Positions 30,527-41,931 of a DNA stretch of 64,000 nucleotides are shown here, one piece after another. The stretch is from positions 666,346 to 730,345 of the forward strand of contig NZ_LMJB01000001.1 in NCBI RefSeq assembly GCF_001429765.1, read 5' to 3'. Positions within the stretch are counted from its first letter, which is position 1. Each line of letters starts with the position of its first letter. Position numbers and translations under genes: made by a program. The notes under the pieces are model-generated. The model did no database searches and was not told the DNA's origin. It worked only from the letters and a program-made list of their open reading frames with translations. The stretch comes from Flavobacterium sp. Root901 (GTDB taxonomy: Bacteria > Bacteroidota > Bacteroidia > Flavobacteriales > Flavobacteriaceae).

Positions 30527-32821
30527 TTAAAGAATCTCAAAACCACTTTGCAAACCTTTATCAGAACTTCCGCCAACCATAATTTTAAAAGTCCCCGGTT
30601 CTACTAAATAAGTTCCTTCATTATTGTAAAACCCAAGTTCTTTATCTGTCAAAGTAAAAGTTACGGTTTTGGTTTCTCCTTTTTTCAGGTTTACTAATTC
30701 AAAACCTTTCAGTTCTTTTATTGGGCGAATGATACTCGCAAATTCATCGTGAATATACAATTGCACGACTTCCTTTCCATCATAATTTCCTGAATTGCTC
30801 ACTTCAACAGAAACAGTAACTTTTTCACCTTTTGCAAAAGAAGTTTTATTCAGTTTCAAATTTTTATAATCAAAAGTTGTATAACTCAATCCAAAACCAA
30901 ATGGGAATTGAGGCGTTTTTTCCACATCCATATAATGCGACCAGAAAACATTTTTATCGCTGTCAGTTGGTCTTCCTGTGCTGTATTTGTTGTAATAAAT
31001 TGGAACCTGGCCCACATTTCTCGGAAACGACATTGGCAGTTTACCACTCGGATTATAATCTCCGTATAAAACCTGTGCAACGGCATTTCCGGTCTGTGTT
31101 CCTAAATGCCAGGCTTCTACAATTGCCGGAACATGTTCTGCTGCCCAAGGAATACTCAACGGACGGCCATTATTTAAAACCAAAACAATATTTGGATTTA
31201 CTTTGTAAATTTCTTCTAATAATTCCTGCTGTAATCCAGGTAAATTTAAATCGGTTCTGCTTCTTCCCTCACCACTTTGAAAACCGTATTCTCCTAAAAC
31301 CATTACCACAACATCGGCATTTTTCGCTGCTGTTTTTGCGGCTTCAAATCCGCTTTTATCAGTTGTATTGAAAACAGTTTCTGTTAAAAATGTGGCTTTT
31401 TGTTTTAATAAATCAGCACCTTTTTCAAAAACCAATTGATTGTCTTTGTATTGCTGCATTCCTTCCAAAACCGAAACGGCTGTATTATCATCTGCGGCAA
31501 TTCTCCAGCTTCCCAGCGGACTATTTTTATCATTTGCCAAAGCGCCTATCAAAGCAATTTTCTGTCCGGATTTTTTTAACGGCAATAAATTCTTTTCATT
31601 TTTCAAAAGGACGATTGATTTTTTAGCCATATTCAAAACGCCATCGTTATTGGCTTTGCTCCCAACGACTTCTTTCTCGCGTTTTTCATCACAATATCGG
31701 TACGGATCATCAAATAATCCTAATTCAAATTTCACGCGAAGAATTCTGCGTACGGCATCATCAACCAATGTTTCTTTTACTTTTCCTGATTTTACCAGAT
31801 CAACCAATTTTGCAACGTATAAATACGATTCCATATCCATATCAGAACCTGCGATTACAGCTTTTGCTGTTGCATCAGCTTCATCTTTGGCATAACCGTG
31901 CGCAATCATTTCACGAATTGAAGCATAATCCGAAATTACAAATCCGTCAAACTTCCATTTTCCTTTCAAAATATCTCTTTGCAAAAAAGCATTTCCCGTT
32001 GCCGGAACGCCATTTAAGGTATTAAACGAATTCATAAACGTACGAACTCCCGCCTGAACTGTCGCTTCAAACGGAGGCAAAACCGAATTGTACAATTTAG
32101 AATTACTGATATCTACGATATTATATTCCAATCCAGCTTCGACATAACCGTAAGCCGCAAAGTGTTTCGCACAAGCTGCAATCGTATTTACTTTTGCTAA
32201 ATCGGCAGTTGTTTCTCCCTGAAAACCTTTTACTCTGGCATATCCCACTTTACTTCCCAAATACGGATCTTCTCCCGCACCTTCCATAACACGTCCCCAG
32301 CGCGCGTCGTTTGCCACGTCTACGTTTGGTCCGAAAGTCCAGTTAATTCCGGATGCCGAAGCTTCATCTGCTGCAATCGCTGCCGATTTTCTAATCGCTT
32401 CCAAATCCCAGCTTGCCGCTTCTGCCAGCGGAATCGGGCTTAACGTTTTATAACCGTGTATTACATCAAAACCAATAATTAAGGGAATTCCCAAACGGGT
32501 TTCTTCAACGGCAATTTTCTGCACGGCCCTTACTTCTTTTACACCGCGAACTGTAAGCATCGAGCCAACTAATCCTTTTCGCAAATGTTCGTATTTCAAT
32601 TCGGCTGTACCGCCTTTTGGCGCTGGTCCCGTAACATCCCAAAAACCATTATATTGATTCATCTGCCCTACTTTTTCCTCCAAAGTCATCAAGGGTAAAA
32701 GCAAATCGATACGCTGTTCAATAGTTTTATTTTTATCCAGATATGGCTTTTTTTGTGCATTCATATTTCCAACGGTAAACAAGGACAAAGCCCCGATAAT
32801 TATTATTTTTTTATTTTTCAT
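30527..32821 (-). CDS. bglX: Beta-glucosidase, GH3 (BglX-like), periplasmic
   Basis: Releases beta-linked glucose from short oligosaccharides, probably the cello- and glucomanno-oligomers made by the GH5 and GH26 enzymes. The 764 residues have a signal peptide (about 1-22, ending NMNAQ) and three domains: the (beta/alpha)8 barrel with RLGIPLIIGFDVIHGYKTLSP, the nucleophile Asp298 in GFVISDYAS, the alpha/beta sandwich (GEYGFQSGEGRSRTDL, AWHLGTQTGNAVAQVLYG) and a C-terminal fibronectin III-like domain. BglX-type GH3 enzymes have broad beta-glucosidase activity, so the exact bond is not certain. A repeat lies directly upstream of its ATG (32837-32874). Confidence 0.92.
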   Translation of the reverse strand: MKNKKIIIIGALSLFTVGNMNAQKKPYLDKNKTIEQRIDLLLPLMTLEEKVGQMNQYNGFWDVTGPAPKGGTAELKYEHLRKGLVGSMLTVRGVKEVRAVQKIAVEETRLGIPLIIGFDVIHGYKTLSPIPLAEAASWDLEAIRKSAAIAADEASASGINWTFGPNVDVANDARWGRVMEGAGEDPYLGSKVGYARVKGFQGETTADLAKVNTIAACAKHFAAYGYVEAGLEYNIVDISNSKLYNSVLPPFEATVQAGVRTFMNSFNTLNGVPATGNAFLQRDILKGKWKFDGFVISDYASIREMIAHGYAKDEADATAKAVIAGSDMDMESYLYVAKLVDLVKSGKVKETLVDDAVRRILRVKFELGLFDDPYRYCDEKREKEVVGSKANNDGVLNMAKKSIVLLKNEKNLLPLKKSGQKIALIGALANDKNSPLGSWRIAADDNTAVSVLEGMQQYKDNQLVFEKGADLLKQKATFLTETVFNTTDKSGFEAAKTAAKNADVVVMVLGEYGFQSGEGRSRTDLNLPGLQQELLEEIYKVNPNIVLVLNNGRPLSIPWAAEHVPAIVEAWHLGTQTGNAVAQVLYGDYNPSGKLPMSFPRNVGQVPIYYNKYSTGRPTDSDKNVFWSHYMDVEKTPQFPFGFGLSYTTFDYKNLKLNKTSFAKGEKVTVSVEVSNSGNYDGKEVVQLYIHDEFASIIRPIKELKGFELVNLKKGETKTVTFTLTDKELGFYNNEGTYLVEPGTFKIMVGGSSDKGLQSGFEIL

Positions 32822-32836
32822 GATTAGTTTTTTTTA

Positions 32837-32874
32837 AAGGTGCTGAGATGCTAAGATTCTGAGGTACTAAGATT
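32837..32874. repeat. CTAAGATTCTGAG-type repeat before the GH3 start
   Basis: AAAGGTGCTGAGATGCTAAG followed by ATTCTGAGGTACTAAGATTT lies 13 bases from the GH3 ATG. Nearly the same phrase (AAAGGTACTGAGATTCTGAG) lies 8 bases from the ATG of the FAH-family gene at 61304. Confidence 0.6.
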
Positions 32875-32929
32875 TTTTCCAATACTTTACGATTTAGCGT
32901 CTTTGCGAGATTAAAATTATGCATTGCGG

Positions 32930-32954
32930 GGCTTCGACTTCGCTCAGCCTGACA
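32930..32954. repeat. Short hairpin repeat, intergenic copy (GGCT/AGCC stem)
   Basis: GGCT, the 12-nt loop TCGACTTCGCTC, AGCC, then TGACA. The loop and the TGACA flank are identical to a copy inside the radical SAM gene (40993-41018), but the stem there is CTTC/GAAG. The phrase GCGTCTTTGCGAGATT lies just before it (32898-32913). Confidence 0.65.
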
Positions 32955-33029: not shown

Positions 33030-34409
33030 CTAAAGCTCTGTCGCAAAACACGAAGCCGGCAAATTTACTTTATTGAATAAATCAGACTGCGTTGTATTTC
33101 CCCAGGCAAATCTCACTTTTACCGGTTTCATTACTTTTTTACTTGTCAAAATCACCTGATTGTTTTTTATTGAAGCATCAGCAGGAAAGAAAATGCCATC
33201 TTCTCCGGAGACCTCAAACTGATTGGATGTTTTATTTTTAAAATACAATCCGTCAGCATAATCAAAAGAGACCATAACTTTGTTTTTCTCTATTTTAATT
33301 TCTTTAAAAAGCGGACCATTTACCAAATTAGAATTTGTTTTATAAACTTCTGCTAAAGCCAGATTTGCTAAACGAATTCCGACTGATTTTTTATTCTTAG
33401 GATGAATATCAATCGTGTCTGAAATATCAGAAGTTAAAACCATGCCTGTTTTTGGGACTTCTTTTAAAATCTTTCGTTGAGAATTTCTCACCGTTACGTT
33501 CGAGAAATTATTGGTTCCTGTTTTATAGGGTGCAATCTGAACGAAATAAAAAGGAAATTCATCGTTCCAGCTTTTTCTCCACGAAGTAATTAAAGCCGAA
33601 AGCGTTTTATCATAAACCAAAGATCCAACATTAGATTCGCCCTGATACCAGATTGTTCCGGCAATTTTAAATCCTGCAATTGGGGCAATCATAGCATTAT
33701 AAGCGCGGCCGGGTTGGTGTGGTCCATATTCCTGTTCATTTAGCTTTTTGGCGTTTTCTAATACAACCGGATCATTTTGAACTACTTCTTCCGGCATCCA
33801 GATTTCGGCTGGAGTTCCGCCCCAGTTTGAAGATATTAATCCTATTGGGACATTTTTTAAATCTTCACGAAGACGTTTGGCAAAAAAATAGCCGACAGCA
33901 CTAAAATATTTCATGGTTTCCGGAGTCGATTCAGTCCAGTTTCCCAATACATTATTCTGCGGATTTGACGCTGTTGATTTTAAAACCGTAAAAAATCGAA
34001 TGTTCGGGTTTGCTGCATTTTTTACTTCTTCCCCGCCGTTGTCAATTCCCCAGCTTGCCGACATTTCCATATTAGATTGTCCGGAACAAATCCAGACTTC
34101 GCCAATCAAAATATTCTTTAGCAAAACTTCGTTATAGCCTTTTATGGAAATCGAGTACGGTCCGCCCGCTTCAGGAGTTTTGATGGTAAGTTCCCATTTT
34201 GCCTGATTATTGGTAACGGCTTTATACTCCTGATTGTTCCATCCAGAAACTAATTTGATTTCCTCTTTTGGATTTGCCCAGCCCCAGATTTTGACTTCAG
34301 AATTACGCTGTAAAACCATATTATCCCCAAAAATATTTGGAAGCGTAACATTCGCTAAAGCTGAACTGCAAATCATCAAAAATAAAACGAATAGTAAATT
34401 ATTTTTCAT
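33030..34409 (-). CDS. Sialate O-acetylesterase-family carbohydrate esterase (SASA), secreted
   Basis: SGNH-type esterase that removes O-acetyl groups from sugars. The 459 residues have a signal peptide (about 1-19). The N-terminal part has FGDNMVLQR typical of this family. The catalytic serine is Ser112 in VWICSGQSNMEM, and IWYQGESNVG is the second conserved block. It overlaps the upstream CE2 gene by 11 bases and is surely cotranscribed. Despite the family name, sialic acid is unlikely: in a mannan locus the substrate is more plausibly acetylated mannan or glucomannan (inference). Confidence 0.9.
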   Translation of the reverse strand: MKNNLLFVLFLMICSSALANVTLPNIFGDNMVLQRNSEVKIWGWANPKEEIKLVSGWNNQEYKAVTNNQAKWELTIKTPEAGGPYSISIKGYNEVLLKNILIGEVWICSGQSNMEMSASWGIDNGGEEVKNAANPNIRFFTVLKSTASNPQNNVLGNWTESTPETMKYFSAVGYFFAKRLREDLKNVPIGLISSNWGGTPAEIWMPEEVVQNDPVVLENAKKLNEQEYGPHQPGRAYNAMIAPIAGFKIAGTIWYQGESNVGSLVYDKTLSALITSWRKSWNDEFPFYFVQIAPYKTGTNNFSNVTVRNSQRKILKEVPKTGMVLTSDISDTIDIHPKNKKSVGIRLANLALAEVYKTNSNLVNGPLFKEIKIEKNKVMVSFDYADGLYFKNKTSNQFEVSGEDGIFFPADASIKNNQVILTSKKVMKPVKVRFAWGNTTQSDLFNKVNLPASCFATEL

Positions 34410-39657: not shown

Positions 39658-41931
39658 TTATAAAACCAACAGTCCAAATTCCCGCAGCGTATTAATTGGT
39701 TTTGAATACCAAAATAATTCAAAATCTTCTAGTGAAGTTTCAAAATCATTCTTTACTTCCTGAAAAGTATAATTTTTAGGATTTGAAACTGATATTTTGT
39801 TTAGAATTTCGATTAACCAATTTCCTTCTTCCTGATTCGTCTGAATAGAAAAACTTTCTTTTTTATCGTGAAAAGTCAGGGACATCATTTCCCAGTTTCT
39901 TCCTTTTTTTGATTTTGTAAAGATTTCTGCCGAAGGTTTTCCGCCAATCCAGACTACTTTTGCATTTGGTTTTGTATTGAAATCGTTTTGTTCTTCGAGT
40001 GCATTAAAAATAAAATCGGGATGAATTTTTGTTTTCGGAATTTTAAAATCGAACCAATCCTGAAGTTCATAATCAAAACAAATTCCGTGCATAAAATTAA
40101 AGAGTGATTTCTTTAATCCGAAACTGAATTTATCGTGATTGATTCCTGTTGAATCTGTGTATTCAATATCGTTATTGGCGAAAGTTCCAATTAATTCTGT
40201 TTTCTTAGTCACACCAAATTGCTCCGGATATAATCCAACCGGACTATGAGCCGTTAATGCAAACTGATGCCAAAATCCTGATTGTAAAACTCCTGCTTCA
40301 AATAACTGGCGAACCATTTCAAGACTGTCAATCGTTTCCTGAATGGTCTGCGTTGGGTATCCGTACATTAAATACGCATGAACCATAATTCCTGCTTCGG
40401 TAAAATTGCGGGTTACTTTTGCAACTTGTTCTACGGTTACACCTTTATCAATTAACTTCAATAATCGGTCTGAAGCAACTTCTAAACCGCCAGAAACGGC
40501 AATACATCCTGAGGCTTTTAGTAATAAACATAAATCTTTAGAAAAACTTTTTTCAAAACGAATGTTTGTCCACCAGGTTACGGATAGTTTTCTTTTTAAA
40601 ATTTCGAGAGCCAATGCACGCATTAAAGCCGGCGGTGCAGCTTCATCTACAAAGTGAAAACCGTTTTGACCTGTCTGCAGCATCAATTCTTCTATTCGGT
40701 CGCAAAGCAGGCTGGCCGCAACAGGCTCATAAACTTTAATATAATCGAGCGAAATATCGCAGAAAGTACATTTCCCCCAATAACAGCCATGCGCCATTGT
40801 GAGTTTGTTCCATCGTCCGTCACTCCACATTCTGTGCATCGGATTGACGATTTCAATAACCGAAATGTATTTATCCAAAGGCAAATCAGAATAATCCGGC
40901 GTTCCTACATAAGCTTGTTTATAATCGTGTTTTAGAGAATTGTTTTTATAGACAACTTCTCCGTTTTCTAATATAAATGTTCTTTTAAAACGCTTCTCGA
41001 CTTCGCTCGAAGTGACAGAATCTGGATTTTCTAAATTGAAAATTAATTCTTCAATTGGAACTTCTCCATCATCTAATGTTATAAAATCAAAAAACTCAAA
41101 AACACGTTTATCAGAAAGAGAACGTAGTTCAGTATTAGGAAAACCACCTCCCATTGAAATTTTAATTTCGGGATGATTTTGTTTTACCCATTGTGCGCAT
41201 CGAAAAGCGCTGTATAAATTTCCAGGAAACGGAACAGAAATTAAAAATAATGTAGGCTTTACAGTTTCAATTTTAGCTTTTAAAAGTGAAATTAAAATCG
41301 AATCAATATAAGTTGGTTCTTGCTGTAAAGCGCTGTATAATTCATCAAAAGAATTGGCGCTTCGGCCTAAACGTTCAGCATATCTGCTAAAGCCAAAATT
41401 TTCGTCAACACATTCAACAATAAAATCCGATATGTCTTCTAGATATAAAGTTGCCAAATGTTTTGCTTTGTCCTGGGTTCCCATGGTTCCAAAAGCCCAG
41501 TCGAGTTCTTCCAGCTGTGCAAAACGAGAAGCTTCCGGCAGGAAATCTTCCTGACAAATCTGTAAAGCCAATGTTGGATTTTTTCCCTGCAAAAACTGAA
41601 TTACAGCATCAATCGTTTTGATGTATTCATCCTGCAGAGCAAAAATACGTTTGGAATTATCTGAAATTTCGTTTCCAACATCCTGAAACCTGAAACCTGA
41701 CCCGAGGCTAGAAGCCGAATTGGCGGAGCAAACCTGAAACAAATCTTGTAATCCTTTCTTTGAAAACAGTTCTAGAATCACATCAATACCCAAATCTGCC
41801 TGAACGGATTCTATATTTTTCGTATTCAGAAAACCTTTTATATACGCCGTTGCCGGATACGGTGTATTCAGTTGGGTAAATGGCGGTGTTATGATAAAAA
41901 GTTTTGTTTTCAAAAGAAATATTTTTTGCAA
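39658..41931 (-). CDS. B12-binding radical SAM protein
   Basis: A 757-residue cytoplasmic enzyme. The N-terminal half resembles a cobalamin-binding fold (LFLISVPFPGNLYSAFRCAQ, ISMGGGFPNTELR, and FITLDDGEVPIEELI). The radical SAM core begins at MAHGCYWGKCTFCDI (about 380-392), with a C-x4-C-x2-C spacing, one residue longer than the usual first gap. A later block, GCIAVSGGLEVASDRLLKLI, is also typical. The reaction is unknown. Two repeat-like stretches appear to be inserted in frame: residues about 65-84 (CSANSASSLGSGFRFQ) and 305-314 (SVTSSEVEKR). The gene still reads through with no stop or frameshift. Confidence 0.88.
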   Translation of the reverse strand: MQKIFLLKTKLFIITPPFTQLNTPYPATAYIKGFLNTKNIESVQADLGIDVILELFSKKGLQDLFQVCSANSASSLGSGFRFQDVGNEISDNSKRIFALQDEYIKTIDAVIQFLQGKNPTLALQICQEDFLPEASRFAQLEELDWAFGTMGTQDKAKHLATLYLEDISDFIVECVDENFGFSRYAERLGRSANSFDELYSALQQEPTYIDSILISLLKAKIETVKPTLFLISVPFPGNLYSAFRCAQWVKQNHPEIKISMGGGFPNTELRSLSDKRVFEFFDFITLDDGEVPIEELIFNLENPDSVTSSEVEKRFKRTFILENGEVVYKNNSLKHDYKQAYVGTPDYSDLPLDKYISVIEIVNPMHRMWSDGRWNKLTMAHGCYWGKCTFCDISLDYIKVYEPVAASLLCDRIEELMLQTGQNGFHFVDEAAPPALMRALALEILKRKLSVTWWTNIRFEKSFSKDLCLLLKASGCIAVSGGLEVASDRLLKLIDKGVTVEQVAKVTRNFTEAGIMVHAYLMYGYPTQTIQETIDSLEMVRQLFEAGVLQSGFWHQFALTAHSPVGLYPEQFGVTKKTELIGTFANNDIEYTDSTGINHDKFSFGLKKSLFNFMHGICFDYELQDWFDFKIPKTKIHPDFIFNALEEQNDFNTKPNAKVVWIGGKPSAEIFTKSKKGRNWEMMSLTFHDKKESFSIQTNQEEGNWLIEILNKISVSNPKNYTFQEVKNDFETSLEDFELFWYSKPINTLREFGLLVL
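40993..41018. repeat. Hairpin repeat inside the radical SAM gene (CTTC/GAAG stem)
   Basis: CTTC, the loop TCGACTTCGCTC, GAAG, then TGACAG. It shares loop and right flank with the intergenic copy at 32930-32954, while the stem bases differ but remain paired. Read on the minus strand it codes for residues about 305-313 of the protein, in frame. Confidence 0.6.
41681..41739. repeat. CCTGAAAC-bounded insert in the radical SAM gene
   Basis: Three copies of CCTGAAAC-like units (TCCTGAAACCTGAAACCTGA) on the left and AACCTGAAAC on the right flank CCCGAGGCTAGAAGCCGAAT followed by TGGCGGAGCA. On the minus strand it encodes about 20 residues rich in Ser, Ala and Gly, quite unlike its surroundings. It keeps the frame. 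Confidence 0.5.

Follow-up and report, generated by a model that had tools for sequence, protein, structure and literature searches.

How does a hairpin repeat that also lies between genes come to sit, in frame, within the coding sequence of an enzyme? This question is raised by a 64,000-nt stretch of the Flavobacterium sp. Root901 genome (hereafter the window), for which an earlier note had pointed to two units of one design, one inside a radical SAM gene and the other intergenic. On the forward strand the in-gene unit reads CTTC-TCGACTTCGCTC-GAAG-TGACA, exactly as claimed, and ends at 41017, the end given previously (41018) lying one base too far; the intergenic unit is present as written, GGCT-TCGACTTCGCTC-AGCC-TGACA at 32930-32954. 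The two stems carry different bases at each of their four positions, yet each is complementary, as the same note had it. The layout comprises 25 nt, i.e., a TGTCA tag, a 4-bp stem and a 12-nt loop, and this loop occurs twice in the window versus 0.07 times expected from shuffles. The features under discussion are the following:

39658..41931, minus strand: radical SAM protein gene carrying the unit, 757 aa as listed (Pfam Radical_SAM, residues 380-539)
40987..41046, minus strand: residues about 296-315 of the radical SAM protein, a linker prone to insertions, with palindromic elements in 32 of 98 and 32 of 80 orthologs
40993..41017, minus strand: in-gene REP unit TGTCA-CTTC-GAGCGAAGTCGA-GAAG (coding strand), which codes for VTSSEVEK in the radical SAM frame
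40993..40996, minus strand: GAAG, the 3' stem arm (coding strand), complementary to 41009-41012; the stem covaries over 69 copies
40997..41008, minus strand: conserved 12-nt loop GAGCGAAGTCGA, with 42 exact copies in the genome and none of the control
41009..41012, minus strand: CTTC, the 5' stem arm (coding strand), pairing with 40993-40996
41013..41017, minus strand: unpaired tag TGTCA, a flank in the family pattern, outward in 21 of 23 close neighbouring pairs
32930..32954, minus strand: intergenic REP unit with a GGCT/AGCC stem, between the minus-strand frames 30527-32821 and 33030-34409

The protein that carries the unit matches several B12-type radical SAM families of NCBIfam, none of these matches reaching its cut-off. 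The repeat encodes residues 306-313 without a stop codon, in line with the unbroken frame claimed for residues of about 305-313, and the ortholog alignment that had been proposed reveals a 7-codon insertion relative to most orthologs in both of the sets described below, so that the segment is missing from most relatives rather than conserved in all of them. In the AlphaFold2 model, residues 306-316 lie between a helix and a strand with pLDDT below 50; since this model is poor (mean pLDDT 56), the status of the linker as a tolerant loop rests on sequence variation and not on structure, and it is on this basis that the linker appears to tolerate insertions. Some radical SAM orthologs have a stop codon inside the matched stretch, which in L200 lies upstream of the point where its translation was started; the TTG start at 41931 may therefore be too far upstream.

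The repeat is abundant in the host genome. The exact loop is found 42 times in its 4.99 Mb (22 forward, 20 reverse) and the reversed control not once, whereas a search for the loop plus the TGACA flank with at most 3 mismatches retrieves 86 places versus 6 for the control, 84 of the 86 having been examined with their flanks; the combination of tag (TGTCA/TGACA) and loop yields 30 exact matches and 57 with at most one mismatch. The two units of the window are thus far from being the sole matches. A chance likeness of the coding segment to an intergenic repeat could draw on the stem word CTTC/GAAG of the in-gene copy, which occurs once only among 69 host-genome copies, but the lack of control matches to the loop genome-wide, the insertion relative to orthologs and the recurrence at the same site leave this explanation with next to no probability. 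The uniqueness of the word suggests that the in-gene copy was probably inserted long ago and does not stem from a recent local jump. Beyond the host, TGTCANNNNGAGCGNAGTCGA is found in 54 of 296 Bacteroidota genomes and 30 of 139 genera, with no control match among the matches listed, and a search of 40700-41300 against Rfam gave no match at E up to 1.

The 69 host-genome copies with at most 2 mismatches formed the sample for the stem, and because the four bases flanking the loop were not used in selecting them, they provide a fair test of pairing. Full pairing at all four positions is seen in 46 of the 69, versus a mean of 11.5 and a maximum of 23 when the 3' arms were re-dealt (5000 shuffles). 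Eight stem words occur (GGCT, TCCT, CCCT, GTCT, TTCT, CATT, CTTC and CTCT), the first two base pairs being variable, and the flanks beyond the arm opposite the tag also vary among copies. Moreover, units tend to be arranged in pairs: among 71 units (two with 3 mismatches were added because each had a clear partner), 45 have a neighbour within 120 nt and 42 belong to inverted pairs with the tags outward, the 23 close neighbouring pairs comprising 21 of this kind, one inverted the opposite way and one direct. Of the 21 inverted pairs, nine consist of two self-complementary units with different words, four of two such units with the same word, and eight include at least one imperfect unit. Positions at which the partners carry different words do not pair between the units, yet each unit still pairs with itself, which indicates that the conserved entity is the single-unit hairpin. 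The covarying stem that had been proposed from two units is therefore upheld both across the 69 copies and inside the units of word-mismatched pairs. The further claim, of selection on a folded RNA or single-stranded DNA, fares less evenly, as it agrees with the stem covariation but not with the folding of the two window units taken singly, which on either strand are no stabler than shuffled DNA; five hand-picked inverted pairs out of the 21 fold strongly (z -5.6 to -15.7).

Several observations concern the surroundings of the units. The stretch adjoining the intergenic unit (32830-32930) contains the short repeated words CTAAGATT.CTGAGGTACTAAGATT and CTTTGCGAG, and words similar to CTTTGCGGAG are found between the units of several inverted pairs. 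Loops of class A (that of the window) and class B (see below) also occur in local arrays with a partly regular spacing of ~95-97 nt (G029:C1:254098-255832, G007:C21:268155-268479, G017:C15:193463-193667), a spacing which suggests that the repeats may also grow as tandem arrays. Additionally, 11 of 76 units overlap an open frame of at least 100 aa, some of these frames being surely spurious; this set was obtained by dropping from the 84 places the 8 that combine 3 mismatches with an imperfect stem.

The radical SAM linker was followed through two sets of orthologs. The genus draw comprised 101 Flavobacterium genomes, host included, 100 of which have a radical SAM match; with G031 (no match), G084 (a distant relative only) and G074 (a partial match) left out, 98 orthologs remained. 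The second set consists of the 80 best of at least 581 named orthologs, and its species overlap with the genus draw. Occupancy was called by fixed score thresholds for six palindrome classes, namely class A (GAGCGNAGTCGA, the unit first noted in the window), class B (GAGCYTGTCGA), class C (TTCTGAACTTGTTTCAGAA), class D (TTTCGACGAAGGAGAAATCTC), class E (CCCTCCGAAGGAGGG) and class F (TCCCGAAATTTCGGGA, its own reverse complement). By these thresholds the linker is occupied in 32 orthologs of each set, and the rest of the radical SAM genes, amounting to 382 kb on both strands, contains 50 matches (A 19, B 17, C 9, F 4, E 1). On the reverse strand, classes A-E have no match in the 9.6 kb of linker. 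The occupants use three reading frames, class B shows different stem words, and decayed copies are present among the orthologs. By eye, repeats are also found nested within repeats: class A in class A in L269, L275, L281 and L282, class F in class A in L312 and L328, and another insert in class D in L326. Among 20 orthologs from other Flavobacteriaceae genera, likewise judged by eye, L383 has class A and L378 a decayed class A. Collectively, the sequences indicate that the linker is a recurrent insertion site.

A separate observation is that relatives can differ by paired stem changes within coding sequence, as seen between L349 and L348 for the epimerase-like gene treated below and in L251 and L104 for the radical SAM linker (CCCT/AGGG vs TCCT/AGGA; TCCC/GGGA vs TCTC/GAGA; CTTC/GAAG vs CATC/GATG). 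Such changes would reflect either replacement by another copy or selection on pairing.

The class that occupies the linker matches the repeat stock of the genome in which it is found. In the 16 genomes with a class A linker, the median class A loop count less one is 26, versus 3.5 in the 82 others (p 3.5e-4, relatedness uncorrected), and for the nine genomes with a class B linker the median is 14, versus 2 in 89 others (p 1.1e-4, relatedness likewise uncorrected). How often the linker changed state was estimated on a tree of 178 genes (165 different) from which the linker columns had been removed, a quick tree without bootstrap and with some long branches. For this count, L094, L229 and L277 were relabelled by eye from empty to decayed, and the class labels of L216, L278, L312 and L328 were also changed by eye. 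The linker states need 52 changes on this tree, and even if only branches with support of at least 95 are considered, 29 or more switches between empty and filled are required.

Few insertions and many transfers could be behind such a distribution, each class having entered once or a few times and homologous recombination having then swapped filled and empty linker alleles among species. This explanation accounts well for the near-identical complex alleles of the SSRAESRDEK type, which share the same rewritten left flank and turn up in scattered parts of the tree, 14 changes being needed for the 18 rows of their group. However, six classes, three frames, the class B stem words and nesting need separate insertions whatever the transfers, the occupant class follows the genome's own repeat stock, and three other genes behave in a similar way. 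We therefore regard it as a serious contender whose chances are somewhat short of even. The scatter of similar filled alleles over the tree argues that both insertion and recombination took part, recombination between species being a probable contributor to the patchy distribution of filled alleles.

It could also be that the hairpin is kept in the mRNA or in the protein for regulating or improving the enzyme. In favor of such a role, the stem is fully paired in 12 of 16 distinct simple class A linker copies; yet the element is absent from most orthologs, unrelated repeats fill the site in three frames, a single unit is no stabler than shuffles, and decayed copies exist, all of which makes a function of this kind very improbable. 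Nor did the comparisons yield any sign that the peptide encoded by the insert benefits the enzyme.

The radical SAM gene is not an isolated example. Three further in-gene copies of the host genome were compared, i.e., those in an epimerase-like gene (weak NCBIfam matches, below cut-off), in PurL (NCBIfam match above cut-off) and in a diphosphomevalonate decarboxylase-like gene (MvaD-like; 155 bits versus a cut-off of 171), using for each gene the best 30 orthologs from the 59, 39 and 41 genomes with a match, respectively. All three genes carry the unit in frame, and most of the 30 orthologs lack it; by the radical SAM thresholds the site is occupied in 4/30, 4/30 and 7/30, in near as well as distant relatives. 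Outside the site, matches of any class number 10 in the epimerase-like gene (22.8 kb), 22 in PurL (27.2 kb) and 7 in MvaD-like (31.0 kb). The site is thus clearly enriched in MvaD-like and less markedly so in the other two, and all three fall short of the radical SAM gene in this respect; 16 class C matches counted in the PurL total probably reflect a loose threshold on conserved sequence. Within MvaD-like, class F was called in L438 and L443, where flanking outer class A arms are seen by eye, and L440 presents a similar case, again by eye. A fourth in-gene copy was located in a frame that runs off the stretch and whose gene resembles fused isobutyryl-CoA mutase (1491 bits versus a cut-off of 1500). 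With the three genes compared above, the radical SAM linker is one of at least four sites in the host genome that are filled in several species.

Three possible rules of insertion were considered across these genes and none of them is general. An addition of always 21 nt fits class A in the radical SAM gene of the window's clade, the A-in-A case and the epimerase-like gene, whereas the PurL and MvaD-like copies add 18 nt and other classes differ. A fixed orientation fails in that the unit is TGTCA-first on the coding strand of the radical SAM and epimerase-like genes and reversed in PurL and MvaD-like. Finally, the TGTC tag itself may mark the insertion target, as the PurL empty alleles of L412, L415 and L420 have GACA (TGTC on the other strand) where filled alleles have the tag; as a general rule this fits some PurL alleles only, GACA/TGTC being absent from that position in the radical SAM and epimerase-like empty alleles.

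Which gene could mobilize the repeat? An obvious candidate is the canonical REP/RAYT system, in which the repeats would be moved by the Y1 (HuH) transposases of these genomes. The host has three strong Y1_Tnp genes and one weak match, and in the genus, where 68 of 101 Flavobacterium genomes have Y1 matches, repeats are more numerous in genomes with strong non-IS200 Y1 genes (median 17, n=43) than in the remainder (median 2, n=58), seven IS200-like matches of at least 116 bits having been left out of this comparison. However, the tag is TGTC and not GT[AG]G, no class A or B unit was found in the 1.5-kb flanks of 33 Y1 loci taken from the genus, and the units nearest to one host Y1 gene are ~4.4 kb away. 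Furthermore, controlling for genome size lowers the correlation between transposase and repeat numbers from 0.51 to 0.25, and 11 genomes with at least 20 copies have no strong non-IS200 Y1 gene, some of them having weak or IS200-like matches. With 0/33 loci flanked and a correlation that largely follows genome size, no mobilizing gene can be named, and we consider movement by these Y1 transposases improbable. The host Y1 genes themselves adjoin other palindromes, seen by eye on both sides in L045, where the repeated sequence is ACTGGACTGAAGTCCAG, and on one side in L044 and L046; these palindromes, which also speak against the REP/RAYT explanation, may be the true partner repeats of the Y1-transposase-like genes.

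Our preferred reading, to which we assign a rough probability of 0.85, is that the unit is a variant TGTC-tagged REP that has repeatedly lodged in tolerant protein loops. According to this reading, the single-unit hairpin, exposed as single-stranded DNA, would be recognized by an enzyme acting in trans, which would copy or move the 20-25-nt unit. Insertions into genes, for which the sequence comparisons argue, would persist only if they left the frame intact and fell where the protein can accommodate a few more residues, and a filled loop would then be a tolerated target for the next repeat, which would explain the repeat-in-repeat cases; recombination between species would probably spread some of the filled alleles. 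In its widest form, the proposal would be that certain Flavobacterium enzyme loops are standing docking sites to which a hairpin-recognizing single-strand process, encoded by a putative gene, adds ~6-7 codons again and again, also into repeats already present. We put this extension forward only tentatively and think it rather doubtful.

In-frame REP insertions have so far been described gene by gene, and for the CGTC/TGTC repeats no dedicated transposase was found by Di Nocera et al. (2013; PMC3733652), as far as the portion of that paper drawn on here goes. The 178 radical SAM orthologs, together with 30 of each of the three other genes, offer the same loops in filled, empty, decayed and nested states, natural alleles from which insertion target, orientation and mechanism could be read. 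They also point to a concrete route by which short dispersed repeats could lengthen conserved proteins, in-frame repeats at the same enzyme loops in many species amounting to a natural experiment on protein lengthening by short mobile DNA.

Among known systems, a literature search for the sequence of the unit retrieved no paper, and none was found to report that different repeat classes occupy a single linker in the members of a genus, subscription papers being mostly outside the coverage of this search. Two Flavobacterium genomes are among those scanned for palindromes in another study (PMC12306157, consulted in part). Partial precedents exist. The earlier note had likened the in-gene unit to the Rickettsia palindromic elements (RPEs), and this comparison is apt: as with RPE-4, RPE-6 and RPE-1, palindromes lie in frame within protein genes, here four genes, and RPE-4 and RPE-6 are placed among the CGTC/TGTC-tagged REPs, with a CGTC tag, in the part of Di Nocera et al. 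(2013) used here, the unit of the window bearing TGTC; the likeness is one of description. The RPEs reviewed as in-frame elements are about 150 bp in size (PMC10969869, in the section consulted), whereas the units here measure 25 nt and class A adds 6-7 codons, and in the present case the class that occupies a given loop differs between species, the classes being unrelated.

The REP-RAYT system (REPtron) differs in its tag, GT[AG]G instead of TGTC(A), and in the association with Y1 genes, none of 33 being flanked by class A/B units here; the REPIN, two short hairpin units inverted to form one long hairpin, has its counterpart in the 21 tag-outward pairs within 120 nt. Frequent in-frame REP insertions are also known within tnpA_REP genes, predominantly in subclass 2.4 and of the GT[AG]G kind, and atypical structures adjoin a Bacteroidetes subclass of tnpA_REP (PMC6006769, in the part available to us). 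There the insertions are in transposase genes, whereas here they occupy four unrelated enzyme genes in one genus, with several classes and nesting. A closer parallel to the recurrence at one site is provided by Xanthomonas, where different REPs are described at about the same place of recB in two species (PMC3733652, same part).

Overall, the repeat family most resembles the CGTC-tagged REPs, which often have TGTC (or CCTC) instead and are described by the same authors, in the portion cited, from five phyla including Bacteroidetes, with no linked transposases, predominantly as HH dimers and with in-frame copies inside genes (PMC3733652). Class A shares the TGTC tag, the palindrome and the in-frame gene copies; its units form inverted dimers, and no Y1 transposase is linked to it at 33 Y1_Tnp loci. 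Stem and loop differ: the REPs of that super-family have stems of 8-9 bp with A-T residues at the first two positions, loops mostly of 4-5 nt and a short unpaired tail, mostly CCA (PMC3733652, same portion), whereas class A has a covarying 4-bp stem and a 12-nt loop. By inspection, class C, which fills the same linker in L313 and has a 5-nt loop, fits the stem and loop description of the super-family itself.
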